A stretch of DNA of 64,000 nt, taken from Oceanobacillus sp. FSL K6-2867. GTDB lineage: Bacteria > Bacillota > Bacilli > Bacillales > Amphibacillaceae. Below, piece by piece: positions 47,953 through 60,965 of this stretch. The stretch lies in the NCBI RefSeq assembly GCF_037963145.1, contig NZ_CP150144.1:1736001-1800000 (forward strand). Direction: 5' to 3'. The notes beneath the pieces were generated by a model. The model was not told where the DNA came from and made no database searches. It was given only the letters and a program-made list of their open reading frames with translations. The translations under genes were made by a program, and so were the position numbers. Each line of letters begins with the position of its first letter. Position 1 is the stretch's first letter.

Positions 47953-48660
47953 CTAATACCCAAAAAACGCATCCTTTTTAATATTGCTTTTGGGAACATC
48001 CTTATTTCTTAAATGACTTGAAATATACTCCACCATGGATTTTGGACCCGCAATATAGTATTTTCCATCATTTTTATATTGCTGAGCAAACATATCTATC
48101 CCCTGATATAAGTCATTCTTTGAATCTAGGTAAGTTATCTGTATGGAATAATGGTCAGCAATTTTATCAAGTTCATTTTTAAAAATGTATGCTTTATCGC
48201 TATCTAAATAAAGCAGTTGTACTGGGTTATCACTTGCATTTCCGTTCGCTTCAATTTGTTTCAGGATCGATCGAAACGGGGTAATGCCGATACCGCCTGC
48301 AATAAAGAGTGAAGGGCTGTTATCATTCAAATTAAATGGCCCTACAGGTCCACTCATGCTAATTTTCATTCCTTGTTTAAGTTCTAACATCGCCTGCTTG
48401 AAATCACTCGGATTATCATTAATTTTCATTGTTAGTCGAATAACATTTTCTGCGGGTGCAGACGCCACACTGAATGGCCTTGTAGCATTTTTTATTTTTT
48501 TATGCGTGATGGTAAACAGACCATGCTGCCCTGCTTCCCAGATTAAATCACCTGGCTTCTCAAATAGGAAGGTATACACACCTTCCATTTCTTTATAGCT
48601 CTCTAAAAGTAATATTTCTCTTTTCTTAAACACCGCTAGCATATCTTTGAAAAAACTCAT
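47953..48660 (-). CDS. FAD/NAD(P)H-binding oxidoreductase (ferredoxin reductase-like)
   Basis: A 235-residue flavoprotein reductase without a ferredoxin domain. TRPFSVASAP binds FAD (RPxS), SLFIAGGIGITPFRSIL binds the nicotinamide (GGIGxTP), and the C-terminus has YIAGPKSMVEYI. It transfers electrons from NAD(P)H to an unknown partner. TAGGGAGATAAG precedes the ATG. The ArsR-SRPBCC gene upstream may be in the same direction but is 127 bases away. Confidence 0.9.
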   Translation of the reverse strand: MSFFKDMLAVFKKREILLLESYKEMEGVYTFLFEKPGDLIWEAGQHGLFTITHKKIKNATRPFSVASAPAENVIRLTMKINDNPSDFKQAMLELKQGMKISMSGPVGPFNLNDNSPSLFIAGGIGITPFRSILKQIEANGNASDNPVQLLYLDSDKAYIFKNELDKIADHYSIQITYLDSKNDLYQGIDMFAQQYKNDGKYYIAGPKSMVEYISSHLRNKDVPKSNIKKDAFFGY

Positions 48661-48787
48661 TTTCTTATCTCCCTATTTAGAATAGCTATCCAATACAGCT
48701 AAAACGAATTAGCAGTTGTACAATTAATAATCATTAATGGTCTGGAGCTATTGTGCCTATTAATTACGGGAGGAAAGGCAATATCGC

Positions 48788-49525
48788 TTATTGTTCCAGC
48801 ACATTACCAAGCTGCTCACCCATTTTCGTCCAGCTGTATATTGCCCCCTCGATAGCTCCTTTGGTAGCTTTTGTTTCTTCACTGAATCCAACTTGCTCGA
48901 AATGCAAGTTTGTGGTCCCATCTGAACCTTCTTTCAATGTCCATGTAACAGTAGTATTCTCGCCTTGGCTTGCCCACGTATAAGATAATTTATGGGGCTC
49001 TTTCACTTCAAGCACTTCACAATCTACAATTCCGTTCCACCATTTATTTGGCTCTGCCCGAAATTGAAACTTATGGCCAACTATTGGCTTAAAGTCATTT
49101 TCCCATATCCATTTAGCAAGCATTTCCGAATCCGTTAATGCCTTCCACACTTCTTCAATTGAACTTGTATATTGAAAATCTAATGATACATCTGCTTTCA
49201 TTTTTTGTTCCTCCAATAAAAGATTTAATTTGAACATTCTTTCTTTCCAGAAATCTTCATAGAAAGATACCCAGTCGTGAATTTCCTTCAGAGGAGCTGC
49301 ATTCAGCCGATACCTCGTTTCTCTGCCAACTTTTCTGCTGGTCACAAGTCCAGCCTCTTTTAGAATTGCCAAATGCTTTGAAATTGCTGTGCGACCCATT
49401 TCGAAATGGAAAGTTAACTCATAAAGCGGTAATTCTGCCGCATTCGCTAATAAACGAAGAAGCTTCCTTCGGGTTTGGTCGGAAATAGCACCATAAACAT
49501 CTCTTTCCGTTCCCTTTTCGCTCAA
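48788..49525 (-). CDS. ArsR-type regulator fused to SRPBCC/AHSA1 domain
   Basis: About 245 residues in two modules. Residues 1-95 form an ArsR-like winged HTH (YGAISDQTRRKLLRLL and MGRTAISKHLAILKEAGLVTSRKVGRETRYRLN). Residues 110-245 form an AHSA1 SRPBCC domain (SIEEVWKALTDSEMLAKWIWENDF, SYTWASQGENTTVTWTL). Such fusions sense a hydrophobic ligand through the SRPBCC cavity and derepress themselves and neighbours. TTG 49525 is well spaced from AGGGG; ATG 49534 touches it. A double inverted repeat just upstream is the likely operator. Confidence 0.88.
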   Translation of the reverse strand: MSEKGTERDVYGAISDQTRRKLLRLLANAAELPLYELTFHFEMGRTAISKHLAILKEAGLVTSRKVGRETRYRLNAAPLKEIHDWVSFYEDFWKERMFKLNLLLEEQKMKADVSLDFQYTSSIEEVWKALTDSEMLAKWIWENDFKPIVGHKFQFRAEPNKWWNGIVDCEVLEVKEPHKLSYTWASQGENTTVTWTLKEGSDGTTNLHFEQVGFSEETKATKGAIEGAIYSWTKMGEQLGNVLEQ

Positions 49526-49557
49526 TATCACCATCCCCTGATCTTACACCTTATTAT

Positions 49558-49707: not shown

Positions 49708-49740
49708 AGAAAAAGACTGAATCACTTCTGGATCCAGTCA
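49708..49740 (-). terminator. Terminator after the small minus-strand frame at 49738
   Basis: ACTGgATC / GATtCAGT stem with a TTTTTCTATTT tail on the minus strand. Its arm overlaps the TGA at 49738-49740. Confidence 0.65.
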
Positions 49741-49995: not shown

Positions 49996-51003
49996 CTAAT
50001 TAAACGCTCCTGCCAATAGCTCAATTGCCTTTTTACGTACTTCCAACCCTGGCATAAGTGGCACTAACAGGACTTCATCAGCCTTAAATTGACTAATCAA
50101 CGCATTTAATTGATCTGTCACACTTCCAATATCTCCTACTACCATCCGGATTCGATTCGCTTGAATGATTTTCTTTTCATCTTCCGTGTATGCATATTTA
50201 TGAGCTGTTTCAACCGATGGAAATTCTGACAAATGGGCAAAATTATCTGTGCCGAGCAACCACAAATCTAGGGCTTTTGCGTATTCTTCCGCTTGCTCAT
50301 TCGTTTCAGCAACGACTATAAACGGGGCGATCGACACTCTAGGCTCTCGCATGATAGATGAAGGCTTAAATTCATTACGATACAACTCCGCTGCCTGGAT
50401 ACCAATAGCTAATTTATCAATGCCTGCAAGCGGAAATAATCCAAACGTATAACCAATCCCTAATTTAGCGGCCATTTTAGCATTTCTGATACTAGTTGAC
50501 AGCACCCACATCTCGGGAACGGTTGAAATAACAGGGTTAGCAATTATACCAGAGAAACGATGGTTTTCATCCACTTGATCGCTCAAATACTTGGTTAAAT
50601 CAACAATACTCTGCTCGTAATTGATTTTACTCTTTTTATTCTCGTTTAACGTCCGGTTCACAATGGGCGTTCCTATCGTATTGCCTATTCCCAAATCAAT
50701 TCGACCAGGATGAAACGCTTCGAGAACTCGAAAATTTTCAGCTACTTTATAAGGACTATAATGTGGTATCATCACACCGCCCGAACCGATACGAATCCGT
50801 TCAGTCGCATCTGCTAAACGCATCATGATTAGTTCTGGTGAGCTACTAGCAAAAGCAGGAACGTTGTGATGTTCTGCCATCCAAAACCGTTCATAGCCTA
50901 ATAATTCTGCTAATTGAGCTAGCTCAATTGTATTCTGCAAAGCTTTTTGGGCATTGCTTCCTTCATCAATTTGAGCGTAATCTAAAATCCCTAATTTAAT
51001 CAA
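49996..51003 (-). CDS. Luciferase-like (LLM class) flavin oxidoreductase of the SirTM island
   Basis: A 335-residue LLM enzyme. YERFWMAEHHNVPAFASSSPELIMMRLA and RIRIGSGGVMIPHYSPYKVAENFRVLEAFHPGRIDLGIG are the luciferase-family FMN blocks, and TFGLFP, SIAPFIVVAE follow. TTG 51003 has AAGGG upstream. It lies 30 bases behind lplA2 and closes the SirTM operon; the same gene class accompanies sirTM in staphylococci and streptococci. A redox partner of the lipoyl group or oxidant defence is proposed for it, without direct proof. Confidence 0.92.
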   Translation of the reverse strand: MIKLGILDYAQIDEGSNAQKALQNTIELAQLAELLGYERFWMAEHHNVPAFASSSPELIMMRLADATERIRIGSGGVMIPHYSPYKVAENFRVLEAFHPGRIDLGIGNTIGTPIVNRTLNENKKSKINYEQSIVDLTKYLSDQVDENHRFSGIIANPVISTVPEMWVLSTSIRNAKMAAKLGIGYTFGLFPLAGIDKLAIGIQAAELYRNEFKPSSIMREPRVSIAPFIVVAETNEQAEEYAKALDLWLLGTDNFAHLSEFPSVETAHKYAYTEDEKKIIQANRIRMVVGDIGSVTDQLNALISQFKADEVLLVPLMPGLEVRKKAIELLAGAFN

Positions 51004-51033
51004 TCTTACCCTTCTTTCTATGTCTCAAGGTAC

Positions 51034-52065
51034 TTATGCTTTTTCACTTAAGATAAAGCTAACAAGTTCTTCTTTCGTCAGATTCCCAAAATAATTAGCC
51101 AATTCGACCGATTTTAACGCGTTTAATAAGTCCTCTTTCCTTAACCGTACCCCTACTAATACTTCTTCCACATCTTTTATATTTTTTGTTCCAAAAAAGT
51201 CACCCGAAATCTGAATGGCAGTAATTTTAGCATGCTCAATCGTTAAGCCAACACTAATCGTTCCAATTGGAAAACGTTCTGTTAAACGATATTCGAACTG
51301 CTGGAAGCGACCATAGTTCCAGTCCCAATTATTGTATTTCTCAGCGGCAATTTTATCGACACCTGCCCAATCTTCACGTGTTAATTCATAGCGCTTCGCT
51401 TCACTAACATCATTAATTTCAAGTAATTGGCAAATCATATAATCGGTAAACTCCCAGACCGTCATTTCTTGGTATTCTGGTGCTAGATGAGGACGGATTG
51501 ACCCTACTCGACTGCGGACGGACTGAATCCCATGTGATTTAATTTTCTTCTGGTTTGGATTCAATACGGACACCATTGCTTCATAATTGGGATCTAATAG
51601 CAACGAATACCCAGCGTATATCCGACCATTCTGTAAGGTCATCGCCGCACCAGAGACTTTCTTGCCATCTAAAACCAAATCATTACGACCTTTTTGTTCT
51701 AACTGATCAACGCCTAATTTCTCAAGTGCTTTGATGACCGGTTCATACAGACGTGCATAGTTTCCATGAATGTCCGTACTGCCATCAAATAAGAAGCAAA
51801 AACTCATATTTCGATCATCGAGGTAAATCGCACCGCCACCAGTTTCCCGGCGAACAATTTTAATATCATGCTCATCCATATAAGGCTGATTGACTTCCTC
51901 GTATGCATTCTGGAATTTTCCAATCTGAACAGCCGGCTGCATCATGTATGGAAACAATACATCATCATCTAAGAAAATATGGTCTTTCACATATTCTTGT
52001 AAAGCCATTGCCATTCCTGGATCATATATCCATTCTCCATGGCGCTTCGATTCAATTAAATACAT
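51034..52065 (-). CDS. lplA2: Lipoate-protein ligase A (LplA2 type)
   Basis: A 343-residue ligase that activates lipoate with ATP and transfers it to a Lys of a carrier. VQIGKFQNAYEEVN, RRETGGGAIYLDDRNMSFC (residues 72-90; lipoyl-AMP loop) and the catalytic Lys in DLVLDGKKVSGAA are present, and the C-terminal accessory domain follows. ATG 52065 has AAAGGAGG seven bases upstream; an upstream TTG-type extension at 52086 is not needed. It lies 17 bases behind sirTM, identifying it as the dedicated ligase for GcvH-L. Confidence 0.95.
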   Translation of the reverse strand: MYLIESKRHGEWIYDPGMAMALQEYVKDHIFLDDDVLFPYMMQPAVQIGKFQNAYEEVNQPYMDEHDIKIVRRETGGGAIYLDDRNMSFCFLFDGSTDIHGNYARLYEPVIKALEKLGVDQLEQKGRNDLVLDGKKVSGAAMTLQNGRIYAGYSLLLDPNYEAMVSVLNPNQKKIKSHGIQSVRSRVGSIRPHLAPEYQEMTVWEFTDYMICQLLEINDVSEAKRYELTREDWAGVDKIAAEKYNNWDWNYGRFQQFEYRLTERFPIGTISVGLTIEHAKITAIQISGDFFGTKNIKDVEEVLVGVRLRKEDLLNALKSVELANYFGNLTKEELVSFILSEKA

Positions 52066-52082
52066 TTGCTCGCCTCCTTTGT

Positions 52083-52961
52083 TCACTTGCTAATTGTATG
52101 TAATACTTCAGCAATATCCTCATCAATTCGTACTGTTTGTGGACGAATTGCATGTGGTATGAAATAATCTTTTTGATTCATCGTCACAAACAACGCCTTC
52201 TCATTCCCTTCCGTCATTTGTTGGAAAGGATGTTTAATAAATTGTGGGGTTGTATGTCCCACACCAATTTCCAAAAATAAAATTTTCTTATCTTGATTTT
52301 CTTTCAGAAATTGTTCATAACGTTCTTTCTGTTCATGAAAATGACCATCTTCAACCATTCCCTTTTCTTCATTACGTTTATTAACCTCCAAACCGGCTCC
52401 ACATTTCGGACAAAGCGGAACTAAATTTGCAGGTATCTTCATATCCGATTGTTCCCGGACCATTTTGCGAATTAGCGCTTCATCATGATACGTCTGTTGA
52501 TGACAGTGCTCCGAACATTGCCACAATCCGTATTCCCCTTGAATGCGAAACACTTTATCCATATCGAACTCAGCCGCATAAAACGCATTATCGGCATTCG
52601 TCGTAATAACATGATAATTTTTCCCTGCCATTTTAAGTCGCAAGTCGACATATGCTTGTCCTACTGGTTGATCAAAGAAATTCAACAAGCTGAAACGGCT
52701 TTGAAAAGCCCAGTATTCTTGTTCATCTTCGAAATCAAATAAACTTGCTTGTAACATGTCCAAAAAACGATACTTCGCAATAAAATCGGGAAAAGCGTCC
52801 GTAAACCGTTTACCTACATATGTAAAGCCAGCCGCTGCAGACATTCCTGCACCAATTCCAATGACAATTGCCTCAGCCTCATCTATTAGTTGGTTTAATA
52901 AATCAGCTTGTGACAATGATGCCCCCTCTGTTAATGTTTGCCAATATGAAAGTTGTTGCAT
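52083..52961 (-). CDS. sirTM: SirTM, sirtuin-like protein ADP-ribosyltransferase
   Basis: About 292 residues (numbering from 52967). The Rossmann NAD loop is [13 protein letters not shown] (36-48). TTNAD (122-126) replaces the TQNID of deacetylases, and RIQGEYG (141-147) has Gln143 where sirtuins have the catalytic His. Four Cys (151, 155, 186, 189) form the zinc ribbon. These changes define class M sirtuins, which ADP-ribosylate rather than deacylate. Its known target is lipoylated GcvH-L, encoded two genes upstream. ATG 52961 has AGGGG six bases upstream. Nine bases separate it from the macrodomain gene. Confidence 0.95.
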
Positions 52962-52970
52962 AGCCATCCC

Positions 52971-53765
52971 CTATTCTTTCCTCACTAATAATGACTGATA
53001 GATTTGTAAGTCCTCATCTTTAAATACATTAAAGATGATATGAAGCTTTGATCCGGTATTTCTTATATATTCTTTCACTGTTTGAATCGCAATTTCAGCT
53101 GCATGTTGATTAGGAAAATTAAATTCACCTGTAGAGATACAGCAGAAAGCAAGGCTGTCTAATTGATGCTCATCCGCTAATGCTAAACAAGAATTATAAG
53201 ACATGGCCAGTAATTGCTCTCTTAACGGCGAGACTCCACGCTGGTCGATAAATGGTCCAACAGTATGAATAATATAATCTGATGGTAAATTGTAAGCCTT
53301 CGTAATTTTCGCCTTCCCGATTGGCTCTTTGCGACCTTGTGCTTTTATGAGTTCATCACAATCCAAGCGCAATTGCACCCCTGCACGGGTATGAATAATA
53401 TTGTCAATACAACCATGGTTTGCTTGCATGCAGCCCAAAAACTCACTATTAGCCGCATTAACGATTGCGTCAACTTTTAGACTCGCAATATCACCTTGCC
53501 ATAAATAAAGCTGCTGCTGAACAGCATCTAAATCGTGCAATGAGGTTATGTGTCGTTCGTTATTCCATTGTGTTAAGAAAGCATCTTGAACTTTAACGAA
53601 TTGTTCCGAGATTGGTTCAGGCTGTCGAATATTACAGAGCCCTCGAAACAACGCTATTTTTTCTTCTACAGTATCCCTTTTATATTGCACCATTTGTTCA
53701 TTAGCTTGCGGGTTCTCACTCCATAAATAATCAATTAAATAATCCAATCTAGCTTCTTGATCCAT
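52971..53765 (-). CDS. Zinc-containing macrodomain ADP-ribose hydrolase
   Basis: A 264-residue protein with a 90-residue helical N-terminal extension and a macrodomain: LWQGDIASLKVDAIVNAANS (GDI at 91-93, NAAN at 103-106), then GCMQANHGCID with Cys112, His117 and Cys119 as the zinc set, and a late CCISTGEFNFP that binds the distal ribose. This zinc-macrodomain type removes ADP-ribose from GcvH-L, the reverse of SirTM. AAGGAG precedes the ATG. It is the second gene of the island. Confidence 0.95.
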   Translation of the reverse strand: MDQEARLDYLIDYLWSENPQANEQMVQYKRDTVEEKIALFRGLCNIRQPEPISEQFVKVQDAFLTQWNNERHITSLHDLDAVQQQLYLWQGDIASLKVDAIVNAANSEFLGCMQANHGCIDNIIHTRAGVQLRLDCDELIKAQGRKEPIGKAKITKAYNLPSDYIIHTVGPFIDQRGVSPLREQLLAMSYNSCLALADEHQLDSLAFCCISTGEFNFPNQHAAEIAIQTVKEYIRNTGSKLHIIFNVFKDEDLQIYQSLLVRKE

Positions 53766-53850
53766 AACCTACTCCTTGCGAAATATACTTACAACTAATA
53801 GACCTATTATTCTGAACAAAATATATGAATAACTCCCAAACTATTATTCA

Positions 53851-54183
53851 TTAAGCTTCTTCTAGTTGGTTAAATGCTTCTTCATCCACATCTGTTAATT
53901 TTACTACCCAATTTTCTTCCGTTTTGGCTGAGTTCAGAAGGGTTGGTTCACTTATTGCAGCTTCATTGCGCACGACGATTTTGCCTGCTAATGGAGAAGC
54001 CACATCAATAACAGTTTTTGAAGCTTCTATGTTTAAAATGGTATCATCCACATTAAGTGTATCTCCATTCATATATTCTACAAATCCAACTGTACCAATA
54101 TCATCTTGCAATTCTGGTGTCATACTTAACGTGTACACGTCATCATTTCTTTCTATAAATAAAAAATTCCCTCGTTTTTTCAT
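53851..54183 (-). CDS. gcvH-L: GcvH-L, lipoyl carrier protein of the SirTM system
   Basis: A 110-residue GcvH-like carrier. [20 protein letters not shown] places the lipoyl Lys at position 56. Asp27 (ELQDDIG) corresponds to the residue reported as ADP-ribosylated in the staphylococcal protein (from memory). It is shorter than true glycine-cleavage GcvH and sits without gcvP/T. AAGGAATACG precedes the ATG. It is first in the operon; a perfect palindrome lies 36-51 bases upstream. Confidence 0.94.
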
Positions 54184-54218
54184 TCGTATTCCTTCTTTCT
54201 TATATATTTTTTTTCATA

Positions 54219-54234
54219 ATATACTTAAGTATAT
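54219..54234. promoter_or_regulatory. 16-bp palindromic operator upstream of gcvH-L
   Basis: ATATACTTAAGTATAT is a perfect palindrome in the divergent gcvH-L/OYE region, close to where the gcvH-L start point should be. The regulator is unknown and not encoded in the island. A plus-strand TTGACA-N17-TAGCTT at 54346-54374 could serve the OYE gene. Confidence 0.6.
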
Positions 54235-54422
54235 CATGTATTAACGAGACCTCAAACAGAGTGGCTTTATGCTGTAAAAAATGAGTGGACGGCAAATTAT
54301 TTTATGAACAAAACTATTGATACAGATAGAAAAACTGTATTAATTTGACACTACCTGGCGTTGGTGATAGCTTTAAATTATTAGCAAACATAGCCAAATG
54401 AAGGGAATTGGATAGTATACAA

Positions 54423-55607
54423 ATGAAGACAACAAAACAATACAGTCCTTTATTTAAGACAATCATTCTACCAAATGGTATGGAATTAGATAATCGCTTT
54501 GTCCTATCCCCGATGATCACGAATTCTTCAACTATTGAGGGTTATGTTACCAAGGAAGATTTGGCATATGCAGAACGACGTGCTTGTTCCGCCCCCCTAC
54601 AAATTACAGGTGCTGCTTATATTGAAGAATATGGACAATTGTTTGAATATGGCTTCAGTATCGATGATGATCGTAGCATCGAAGGACTCAAACAACTTGC
54701 TCAAACGATGAAAAAGGACGGCTCTAAAGCAATTATTCAATTAACGCATGCCGGTCGTTTTTCCAAAATATCACTTAAAGATTTCGGTGTTGTTTATGGT
54801 CCAAGTAAAATGAAGTTGAAGAGTCCCGTTGAACATACCGTCTTACCAATGTCCAAACGCAAAATCGAGCATGTTATTACCCAATATGCTGATGCAACAC
54901 GTCGTGCGATTAAAGCCGGTTTTGATGGAGTTGAAATTTCAAGTGCTCAGCGTTTACTAATTCAAACGTTCTTTTCCACTTATTCTAACCAGCGTGATGA
55001 TGAATACGGTGTCCAAAACATTGAAAATCGTTCACGTTTTGGTATCGAAGTGATGAAGGCTGTTCAGAAAGTGATTGCTGAAGAAGCACCAGCTGACTTT
55101 ATTCTCGGGTTTAGGGGCACACCAGAAGAAACGCGCGGTAATGAAATTGGCTACAGTGTAGAAGACTTTCTTTATTTCATGGATCGAATCATGGAAGTAG
55201 CAAACATCCAATATTTAGCTACTGCAAGCTGGGGCAGGAACATTTATAAACAAACGATTCGCCAAGGTAAATTTAAAGATGAATTTATGAATCAAGTTGT
55301 GTACGAACATATCAATGGTCGTGTTCCAGTTATGGCCACTGGTGGCATCAACTCACCAGAAAAGGCACTAGAAGCCTTCCAATTTTCTGATATGGTTGGT
55401 ATGTCTACACCTTTTGTTACCGAACCTGATTTTGTTATGAAGTTAAAAGATGGCCGGGAGGATGAGATTAACTTAGGTTTTTCTAAAGAAGAGCTGGCCG
55501 ATTTAGCGATTCCCGAAAGAGCCTTTAAAGACATTGTTGAATTAATGGATATCGGCGGATCCCTTTCGGAAGAAGCCCGTCATGAACTACGTAAATTATA
55601 CAAATAG
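54423..55607 (+). CDS. Old Yellow Enzyme-type NADH:flavin oxidoreductase of the SirTM island
   Basis: A 394-residue FMN barrel. FKTIILPNGMELDNRFVLSPM, ITGAAYIEEYG, IIQLTHAGRFS and VMATGGINSPEKALE are OYE-family landmarks. The usual substrate pair His-x-x-Asn/His after GFDGVEI is here SSAQ, so the anion-binding His and Asn are lost. ATG 54423 fits family N-termini but has a poor SD; a TTG at 54408 with AAGGGA very close is the alternative. It is divergent from gcvH-L. OYE genes also accompany sirTM in other Firmicutes. Confidence 0.9.
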   Translation: MKTTKQYSPLFKTIILPNGMELDNRFVLSPMITNSSTIEGYVTKEDLAYAERRACSAPLQITGAAYIEEYGQLFEYGFSIDDDRSIEGLKQLAQTMKKDGSKAIIQLTHAGRFSKISLKDFGVVYGPSKMKLKSPVEHTVLPMSKRKIEHVITQYADATRRAIKAGFDGVEISSAQRLLIQTFFSTYSNQRDDEYGVQNIENRSRFGIEVMKAVQKVIAEEAPADFILGFRGTPEETRGNEIGYSVEDFLYFMDRIMEVANIQYLATASWGRNIYKQTIRQGKFKDEFMNQVVYEHINGRVPVMATGGINSPEKALEAFQFSDMVGMSTPFVTEPDFVMKLKDGREDEINLGFSKEELADLAIPERAFKDIVELMDIGGSLSEEARHELRKLYK

Positions 55608-55618
55608 TGCTAGATGTT

Positions 55619-55674
55619 TATACGTGCAGCTAAGGTTTACCAAGCCTTTTGGTGACAACCTTAGTTGCACGTAT
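55619..55674. terminator. Long hairpin between OYE and aminotransferase genes
   Basis: TATACGTGCAgCTAAGGTT pairs with AACCTTAGtTGCACGTATA (19 bases, one G-U) around an 18-base loop that itself has ACCAA/TTGGT. It lies between convergent genes and should terminate both, though T-tracts are weak. Confidence 0.65.
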
Positions 55675-55679
55675 ATAAA

Positions 55680-56882
55680 TTATAAAAGAGCTGTTTCTTT
55701 TTCTAACTCACGGTATAACACTTCACCAATACGCTTCATACCTTCCATAATCTTCTCTATCGACATATTGGAGAAATTCAAACGAAATGTATTTGTTTGT
55801 GTACCATTCGGGAAAAATGGCGTTCCAGGAACACAGGCAACATTGTTTTTCAAGCACTCTGCAAATATATGCGTAGAATCAACGCCCTCTGGAAGTTCAA
55901 CCCAAATGAATAATCCACCTTCTGGCTTACTGTAAGACAAATTCTTCGGAAAAAATTCCTCAATGCAAGCTAACATTGCTGCGCATCTTTCTTTATAAAC
56001 AGCTTTAATTCTATTAATGTGCTCTTCCATATCATAAAGTTCCATATATTTGGCTGTAATTCTTTGTGCAAAGCTGTCCGTATGTAAGTCAGCTGTTTGC
56101 TTAAAAGCAACATACTTCTCAATAAAAGCTTGGTCAGCACAAATCCATCCAAGTCGAAGGCCGGGAGTAAAAATTTTGGAGAAAGTACTCAAATAAATTA
56201 CTCTGCCCTCCGTATCAAAATGTTTCACTGGGGGAAGTTCCTCTCCAGCAAATCTTATAGCTCCATAAGGATTATCTTCTACAATCAGTACATCATATTG
56301 ATTAGCAAGCTCAATCATTTTTTTTCGTCTTTCGAGTGTTAATGTGCGCCCTGTAGGGTTTTGAAAGTCTGGAATTGTATAGATGAATTTTGTGTCAGGA
56401 TGCTCTTGCAGCTGCTTCTCTAGCTCTTCCATAATCATTCCATTCTCATCCATCGCTACTTCAACAAAGCTGGCATTGTATGACTTAAATGTATTAATTG
56501 CCGCAAGATAGGTTGGACTTTCACAAATAATCGTGTCTCCCTCATCGATAAATAGCCTTCCAGTAAGGTCGATTGCTTGCTGGGATCCCGAGGTGATAAG
56601 GATATTGTCAACAGGAGCGTTAATTCCAACAGCTTTCATTCTTCGATTAATAGCTTCTCTTAATGGAACATACCCCTCCGTCGTACTATATTGAAGTGAA
56701 GCCGCTCCTTCTTCGTTCAAAACAGCATTACACGCATCCTTTAGAGCATCTAATGGAAACAATTCTGGGGCCGGAAGCCCTCCAGCAAAGGAGATTACTT
56801 CCGGTCTTTCTGTTATTTTCAAAATTTCCCGTGTCTCCGAAGATTTAACAAAATGAGCTCTCTTAGCAAATTTATTTCCCAT
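55680..56882 (-). CDS. PLP-dependent aminotransferase, 2-aminoadipate transaminase-like
   Basis: A 400-residue class I/II aminotransferase. ISFAGGLPAPELFP opens the enzyme; ILITSGSQQAIDLTGRLF, YTIPDFQNPTGRTL, LIVEDNPYGAIRF and the Schiff-base Lys of YLSTFSKIFTPGLRLGW follow, and TFRLNFSN carries the substrate Arg. It resembles LysN/Aro8-like aminotransferases that act on 2-aminoadipate, aromatic or branched substrates. Monocistronic. It is not part of the SirTM island. Confidence 0.9.
   Translation of the reverse strand: MGNKFAKRAHFVKSSETREILKITERPEVISFAGGLPAPELFPLDALKDACNAVLNEEGAASLQYSTTEGYVPLREAINRRMKAVGINAPVDNILITSGSQQAIDLTGRLFIDEGDTIICESPTYLAAINTFKSYNASFVEVAMDENGMIMEELEKQLQEHPDTKFIYTIPDFQNPTGRTLTLERRKKMIELANQYDVLIVEDNPYGAIRFAGEELPPVKHFDTEGRVIYLSTFSKIFTPGLRLGWICADQAFIEKYVAFKQTADLHTDSFAQRITAKYMELYDMEEHINRIKAVYKERCAAMLACIEEFFPKNLSYSKPEGGLFIWVELPEGVDSTHIFAECLKNNVACVPGTPFFPNGTQTNTFRLNFSNMSIEKIMEGMKRIGEVLYRELEKETALL

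Positions 56883-58361: not shown

Positions 58362-60965
<2,604 letters not shown>

Follow-up and report, generated by a model that had tools for sequence, protein, structure and literature searches.

The stretch of DNA analysed here, the window, comprises 64,000 nucleotides of the genome of Oceanobacillus sp. FSL K6-2867 (contig NZ_CP150144.1, positions 1,736,001 to 1,800,000), and its positions 49996-55607 carry the genes of a lipoate-dependent protein ADP-ribosylation system centered on the class M sirtuin SirTM. The genes for GcvH-L, a zinc macrodomain protein, SirTM, LplA2 and a luciferase-like monooxygenase (LLM) class flavin oxidoreductase form a minus-strand run (49996-54183), which is faced by a gene for a flavoenzyme of the Old Yellow Enzyme (OYE) fold (Table 1). 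A preliminary description of this DNA had placed these six genes here and called them a complete lipoate-dependent SirTM set with two flavoenzymes; profile and structure matches confirm all six positions and all six families. The gaps, described as 9-85 bases, are correct at the upper bound and not at the lower: with the most likely starts they measure 85 (gcvH-L/macrodomain), 3 (macrodomain/sirTM), 17 (sirTM/lplA2) and 30 bases (lplA2/LLM). The LLM gene starts with TTG at 51003, and for the OYE gene ATG 54423 and TTG 54408 are both candidate starts.

Table 1. Genes and candidate signals of the SirTM locus, in window positions
Feature	Position	Strand	Basis
LLM class flavin oxidoreductase, MsnO8 family	49996..51003	-	TTG start; TIGR03558, PF00296
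lplA2, lipoate-protein ligase	51034..52065	-	TIGR00545; nearest solved chain 6jom
sirTM, class M sirtuin, protein ADP-ribosyltransferase by homology	52083..52967	-	5a3a match, Asn124/Gln143
Zinc-dependent macrodomain, protein-ADP-ribose hydrolase by homology	52971..53765	-	NF003163, 5kiv, Cx4HxC
gcvH-L, lipoyl carrier (Lys56) and ADP-ribose acceptor (Asp27), by homology	53851..54183	-	5a35
OYE-fold flavoenzyme, operon type	54423..55607	+	3l5a match; Ser/Gln/Leu pocket
Candidate sigma-A promoter of gcvH-L operon	54228..54255	-	TTGAGG-16-TATACT, TG before second hexamer
Candidate sigma-A promoter of OYE gene	54345..54373	+	TTGACA-17-TAGCTT, TG before second hexamer
Terminator-like hairpin after LLM	49715..49739	-	hairpin scan, little above chance

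The locus is a complete extended SirTM operon of a kind that has already been described. Rack et al. (2015; PMC4518038; this and all other sources with a PMC number are represented here by the portions of their text available to us) described, for Lactobacillales and Staphylococcaceae, an extended operon that includes GcvH-L and LplA2, its association with LLM and OYE or, less often, with only one of them, and an interaction of OYE with lipoylated GcvH-L. The same gene set is reported for S. aureus (PMC5049849), and PMC11490716 (2024) has the OYE gene of some species on the opposing strand (Fig. 1 legend) and calls the relevance of LLM and OYE elusive. Because both flavoenzymes are part of the published operon, those of the island are not new. 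Biochemical work on S. aureus and S. pyogenes proteins has demonstrated lipoylation by LplA2, lipoylation-dependent ADP-ribosylation and its reversal by the macrodomain protein. The extended operons of S. aureus (sav0322-0327) and S. pyogenes share with the window the six families and the GcvH-L residues K56 and D27, whereas the window differs in its host, Oceanobacillus, and in the LLM gene, which in its family follows lplA2.

The carrier and its ligase retain their key residues; acceptor, lipoyl and zinc residues are taken here from PMC4518038 and PMC11490716. GcvH-L matches 5a35 over all 110 residues (E 7.3e-43) and contains the acceptor Asp27 and the lipoyl motif ExxK (Glu53, Lys56), all three of which are present in 38 of 38 loci scored, and Lys136 of LplA2 is present in 39 of 39, nine loci of either set being repeats of the same genomes. 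LplA2 exceeds the cut-off of TIGR00545 (371.3 versus 280 bits) and has 6jom as its best solved chain. GcvH-L passes PF01597. Like the glycine cleavage H protein and the lipoate-binding carrier proteins of sulfur oxidation, GcvH-L is a small carrier with a lysine for lipoylation; unlike the H protein, it carries the ADP-ribose acceptor and scores below the NCBIfam cut-offs for GcvH (TIGR00527, 48.2 versus 115.85 bits; a second model, 56.3 versus 117 bits). The genome has a stronger GcvH match at another place (C1:579217-579576, E 2.7e-48). In another genome (G244), a GcvH homologue 40% identical to GcvH-L (L145:6873-7230), with QDDIG around the acceptor Asp, adjoins ArsC-like and metN-like genes (named by eye); this locus has no match to the LLM, OYE, ligase or SirTM of the island and was excluded from the count of extended loci; the homologue is a possible link between GcvH and GcvH-L.

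The writer and the eraser retain their key residues as well. SirTM has no Pfam match at E 0.001 and aligns over its length with 5a3a (E 5.7e-126), labelled SIR2 family protein in the database, which we take to be the S. pyogenes SirTM. The alignment includes the catalytic Asn124, Gln143 (QG replacing HG) and four cysteines, and the motif GVGHTTP given for SirTM in PMC4518038 is present. The macrodomain protein scores 375.1 bits against a cut-off of 272 with NF003163, matches 5kiv (E 4.1e-90) and also 8rsl, carries the zinc loop Cx4HxC as CMQANHGC and has an N-terminal extension, the Macro domain beginning at residue 102 of 264; it is the sole PF01661 match of the genome at E 0.01.

Within the family of the window, 159 genomes were drawn, the window's own included, and 20 have a SirTM-type match at E 1e-20. 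Eighteen of these carry the extended operon (window, L060-L076) and two a macrodomain and SirTM only (L077-L079, one genome holding two of these minimal loci). In a draw of 299 genomes from the class, 10 have a SirTM match at E 1e-30, eight with the extended operon (window, L080-L086) and two with the minimal one (L087, L088). A family-wide neighbourhood search had been proposed as a check: the 17 other extended family loci agree with the window in strands and order, with LLM absent beside four, and thus the arrangement is more than chance.

The presence of OYE separates the two kinds of operon. We counted 30 extended loci (window, L060-L076, L080-L086, L013, L014, L015, L091 and L093), in which L003-L011, from the same genomes as members of L060-L076, were not double-counted and from which L012, beginning inside the macrodomain gene, was left out. 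OYE lies in the same locus as GcvH-L and LplA2 in all 30, and LLM in 26. Conversely, the fetched stretches of all eight minimal loci (L077, L078, L079, L087, L088, L094, L181, L182) contain no match to GcvH-L, LplA2, OYE or LLM, all of which the window has, although their writer/eraser pair is related to that of the window (macrodomain 37-52% and SirTM 39-44% identity in five loci). Fisher's test for OYE in extended versus minimal loci gives 2e-8, a figure that overstates the case because the loci are related to one another and one genome supplies two of the eight minimal ones. In the class draw, an operon-type OYE (at least 58% identity) occurs in eight of 299 genomes, exactly the eight with the extended operon, and all other OYE matches at E 1e-60 are 35-39% identical.

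The flavoenzymes also accompany the carrier where the eraser is missing. In a Mesomycoplasma hyorhinis record of 843,827 bases (a single record, filed as a plasmid and taken here for the chromosome) the genes for LLM, GcvH-L, SirTM, LplA and OYE stand in a row without a macrodomain gene. PF01661 has no match in the whole record at E 0.01, while the window genome and eight of 14 control genomes do match. Judged by this one Mesomycoplasma record, the eraser is not a universal part of the extended locus. The word Mycoplasma does not occur in the available text of PMC4518038, which is less than a full search of the printed version.

The OYE of the operon belongs to the OYE family (PF00724, 189 bits against a cut-off of 27) and matches 3l5a (E 2.1e-156), which we take to be OfrB, the OYE of the S. 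aureus operon. In OYEs, a pair formed by His and either His or Asn binds the carbonyl group of the substrate, Tyr is the proton donor, and Gln105, His108 and Arg230 (query numbering) have a flavin role. Alignment with 3hf3 and with paralogues yields Ser, Gln and Leu in the window OYE at the places of His, His and Tyr in 3hf3. To compare OYEs more widely, 148 rows (28 from the loci and the window, and the best 120 of 580 listed proteins) were merged to 126 distinct proteins of at least 58% identity, the repeats being one protein with different ends; the 126 include a fragment, P0052, that differs little from the window OYE. In all 126, query positions 172, 175, 176 and 177 (numbered 173, 176, 177 and 178 when counting begins at ATG 54423) hold Ser, Gln, Arg and Leu, and Gln105, His108 and Arg230 are likewise invariant. 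The mycoplasma and Aerococcus OYEs, which lie outside the 126, also have Ser/Gln/Leu. Thus, the operon type is like the YqjM/OYE1/OfrA-type enzymes in family and flavin residues and differs from them in the classical His/(His or Asn)/Tyr set. Among eight valid comparison OYEs (six from the window genome, two from another genus; row L168, a wrong open frame at a place where the OYE contains a stop, was left out), six have His and Tyr, and five of these six have Asn or His between them. His/Asn/Tyr is also found in three second-tier OYEs from genomes of genus code g26, which share 35% identity with the OYE of the window and are presumably OfrA of staphylococci.

PMC9152700 calls OfrB an orthologue of B. 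subtilis YqjM, and its available text contains none of the terms "active site", "catalytic" and "histidine"; the aligned residues of the operon-type OYE do not fit a plain YqjM function. We found no description of the Ser/Gln/Leu substitution in a literature search that covered the available portions of PMC9152700, PMC4518038, PMC11490716 and PMC5049849 and lay outside most subscription journals.

LLM follows the operon less strictly. The window protein scores 354.6 bits with TIGR03558, the MsnO8 family (cut-off 166.95), and matches PF00296. LLM stands after lplA2 in the window family, where present, and between OYE and gcvH-L in seven other class loci; in Aerococcus (L093:2243-3520) the operon has a mechanosensitive channel gene between LLM and gcvH-L. 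Such differing positions suggested independent recruitment, which is not supported because in a tree of 52 rows all operon LLMs are split from 22 of 25 sampled standalone LLMs by a branch with support 100/99 (the tree is unrooted, with several long branches, and its finer branching is unsure). This grouping fits a co-inheritance of LLM with the operon although its position differs between lineages. The three remaining standalone LLMs (L096, L098, L099; genus code g26, no SirTM match) are nested among operon LLMs and are likely, from their placement, operon remnants. One of the four extended-operon genomes without LLM at the locus, G411, carries pieces of operon-type LLM at other places (70% and 81%), the 70% one being L183 (G411:C37), away from the operon.

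Combining the residue data with the locus comparisons, we suggest that the operon encodes a carrier pathway under the control of a reversible modification in which: (i) LplA2 would attach lipoate to Lys56 of GcvH-L, (ii) SirTM would use NAD+ to ADP-ribosylate lipoylated GcvH-L at Asp27 and the zinc macrodomain protein would remove the tag, as the conserved residues of the three proteins indicate, (iii) GcvH-L may serve as a dedicated swinging-arm carrier, (iv) OYE (always, in the loci examined) and LLM (usually) may act on the lipoyl arm or on cargo borne by it, and (v) SirTM and the macrodomain protein might gate the access of the flavoenzymes according to the NAD+ supply. With a probability of roughly 0.7, then, the window holds a complete operon in which OYE and LLM are clients of a lipoyl carrier gated by ADP-ribosylation and in which OYE is no general ene-reductase. 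This reading draws on the presence of OYE in 30 of 30 extended and none of eight minimal loci, the invariant Ser/Gln/Leu and the retention of both flavoenzymes in M. hyorhinis. More tentatively, and with somewhat less than even confidence, the operon OYE may form a class of its own within the OYE fold, a flavin mononucleotide enzyme whose invariant Ser-x-x-Gln-Arg-Leu pocket serves exclusively the lipoyl arm of GcvH-L or a molecule borne by it, so that GcvH-L, LplA2, OYE and in part LLM would make up a lipoyl-carrier pathway with an NAD+-dependent ADP-ribosylation switch in environmental bacteria, pathogens and mycoplasmas.

Several points weigh against the two flavoenzymes as clients of a gated carrier. 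Neither OYE nor LLM has a known substrate or product, and the gating by NAD+ is purely inferred. LLM is not essential, since no LLM match in three operon genomes (G343, G346, G349) exceeds 43%. The counts are not independent, as five of the eight class genomes belong to a single genus code. The loss of the first His is not unique in the superfamily, as two long paralogues from the window genome (660-677 residues) have Thr in its place. Finally, no column of the alignment of operon-type OYEs is mostly Cys (the best has Cys in 27 of 148 rows), which speaks against a classical disulfide (lipoamide) reductase; OYE as such a reductase with redox cysteines was rejected on this ground. The missing Cys suggests that a route like that of dihydrolipoamide dehydrogenase does not apply and that direct flavin chemistry would remain.

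The same lack of a conserved cysteine bears on the published model, in which the lipoyl arm of GcvH-L scavenges reactive oxygen species (ROS), OYE and LLM recycle the arm or detoxify ROS, and ADP-ribosylation is the off switch. This model, proposed in PMC4518038 and PMC11490716 with reference to stress induction and to the binding of OYE, is in our view a real possibility, if one on which we would not bet. Section 12 of PMC11490716 draws on OfrA, treating it as closely homologous to the operon OYE; since the presumed OfrA keeps His/Asn/Tyr and operon-type OYEs do not, the OfrA phenotype may not transfer. The system was introduced as a trait mostly of microbial pathogens and tied to host-derived ROS, and its occurrence outside pathogens makes host-derived ROS unlikely as its only reason.

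Alternatively, GcvH-L could store lipoate and donate it to E2 subunits, with SirTM locking the store and the flavoenzymes being incidental. Such a relay is in line with PMC7873978, according to which S. aureus LplA2 lipoylates both GcvH-L and E2 subunits and B. subtilis GcvH acts as a relay. We nevertheless judge it unlikely, as it leaves unexplained why OYE accompanies the carrier in every extended locus and why OYE and LLM are retained with it in the small mycoplasma record. That the flavoenzymes are mere hitchhikers held by operon inertia without a functional tie to GcvH-L, a view to which the three genomes without operon-type LLM and the commonness of the LLM family (224 of 299 class genomes at E 1e-25) lend something, appears very improbable, because inertia of a single transcript poorly explains an OYE gene that is divergently transcribed in the window family yet present in all 30 loci, and an order of OYE, LLM and gcvH-L that differs between lineages. 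The island as a defence system was rejected, since a PADLOC scan of eight proteins gave no match for seven of them (SirTM, the macrodomain protein, OYE, three further sirtuins and an HD protein); LLM had one weak oxidoreductase match.

The divergent arrangement raises the question of shared regulation. A promoter consensus scan found 26 promoter-like sites against 23.6 expected, which is not above chance; the stretch with the candidate gcvH-L promoter is alignable across 20 divergent regions of the family, in 15 of which TTGACA lies upstream of OYE. No shared operator stood out when divergent regions were compared. A perfect 16-base palindrome (54219-54234), which overlaps the possible -10 element of the gcvH-L promoter, was rejected because only the window has it out of 36 divergent regions, a set that includes repeats of one genome, and gapped TACT/AGTA half-sites were scattered without common spacing. 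The terminator scan found seven hairpins against a mean of 4.8 (sd 2.1) in shuffles, little above chance; none lies in the intergenic gaps of the operon, and two overlapping matches lie inside the macrodomain gene. An inverted repeat at 55614-55680 (24-base arms, 88% complementary), between the convergent OYE and aminotransferase genes, is perhaps a two-way terminator. Just past the operon (47953-49534, minus strand) lie genes for a stand-alone ferredoxin-reductase-like protein and an ArsR-AHSA1 fusion regulator, a pair that, of L060-L076, only L060, the closest relative, has near its operon. At 58362-60965 (minus strand) a PEP-synthase/rifampicin-phosphotransferase-like gene (named by eye) is apparently split into two open frames.

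Three further SirTM relatives (32-39% identity; C1:1165366-1168952), two of the QG type and one of the EG type, are encoded by this genome outside the window. They lie in a cassette (C1:1162463-1169042, equal to L029:5464-12043) with the order PncA-like, PncB, HD, sirtuin, sirtuin, NadD, sirtuin. A QG-type and an EG-type sirtuin with HD, PncB and PncA recur on a Paenibacillus plasmid and a Mesobacillus plasmid. Among 75 genomes of the genus of G076, four hold a close relative, and by match position one of these is the strain of the Paenibacillus plasmid itself. Of the loci in the remaining three, L164 is complete; L163 has no close PncA in place, but its genome also contains L166, where PncA and a QG-type sirtuin stand on a different contig; and at L165 the matches are confined to partial ones for PncB and HD. 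The EG motif is present in six of six EG-type and QG in eight of eight QG-type sirtuins of the cassette loci. No macrodomain match was found in these loci, and the two plasmids have no PF01661 match. In an unrooted tree with some long branches, the cassette sirtuins form two groups outside the macrodomain-linked SirTMs. Enzymes of this kind return nicotinamide to NAD+ in the salvage pathway, and those of the cassette would do so with nicotinamide released by the sirtuins. A literature search, in the portions of text available to it, yielded no description of an NAD-salvage/sirtuin cassette. A Lactiplantibacillus plasmid (L092:4902-7074) has a diverged QG/EG sirtuin pair, the EG-type one in a protein annotated as cupin-domain.

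The 13 named SirTM loci come from seven Oceanobacillus, two Lentibacillus, Salinicoccus, a Sporosarcina metagenome-assembled genome (MAG), a MAG named for chicken gut and Atopobacter phocae, and close OYEs also occur in Virgibacillus, Jeotgalibaca and Allobacillus (among the best 120 of the 580 listed proteins). Most of these hosts are harmless inhabitants of soil, the sea or salted food. No SirTM relative turned up in 39 genomes of the family of G022 or among the viral contigs scanned; one record of 5,525 bases with the label Staphylococcus phage (OR849908.1, H26) carries a SirTM homologue and is perhaps host DNA. The hosts found here widen the range given in the available text of PMC4518038. 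The preliminary description was thus right in placing the set beyond pathogens, and 18 of the 159 family genomes have it; its further step to a general redox-stress role is not borne out, since occurrence outside pathogens does not reveal to which stress, if any, the system responds. The complete set in Oceanobacillus and Lentibacillus provides harmless hosts in which the system can be studied, and the bond between OYE and carrier, together with an active site unlike that of classical enone reductases, makes the role of the flavoenzymes directly testable.

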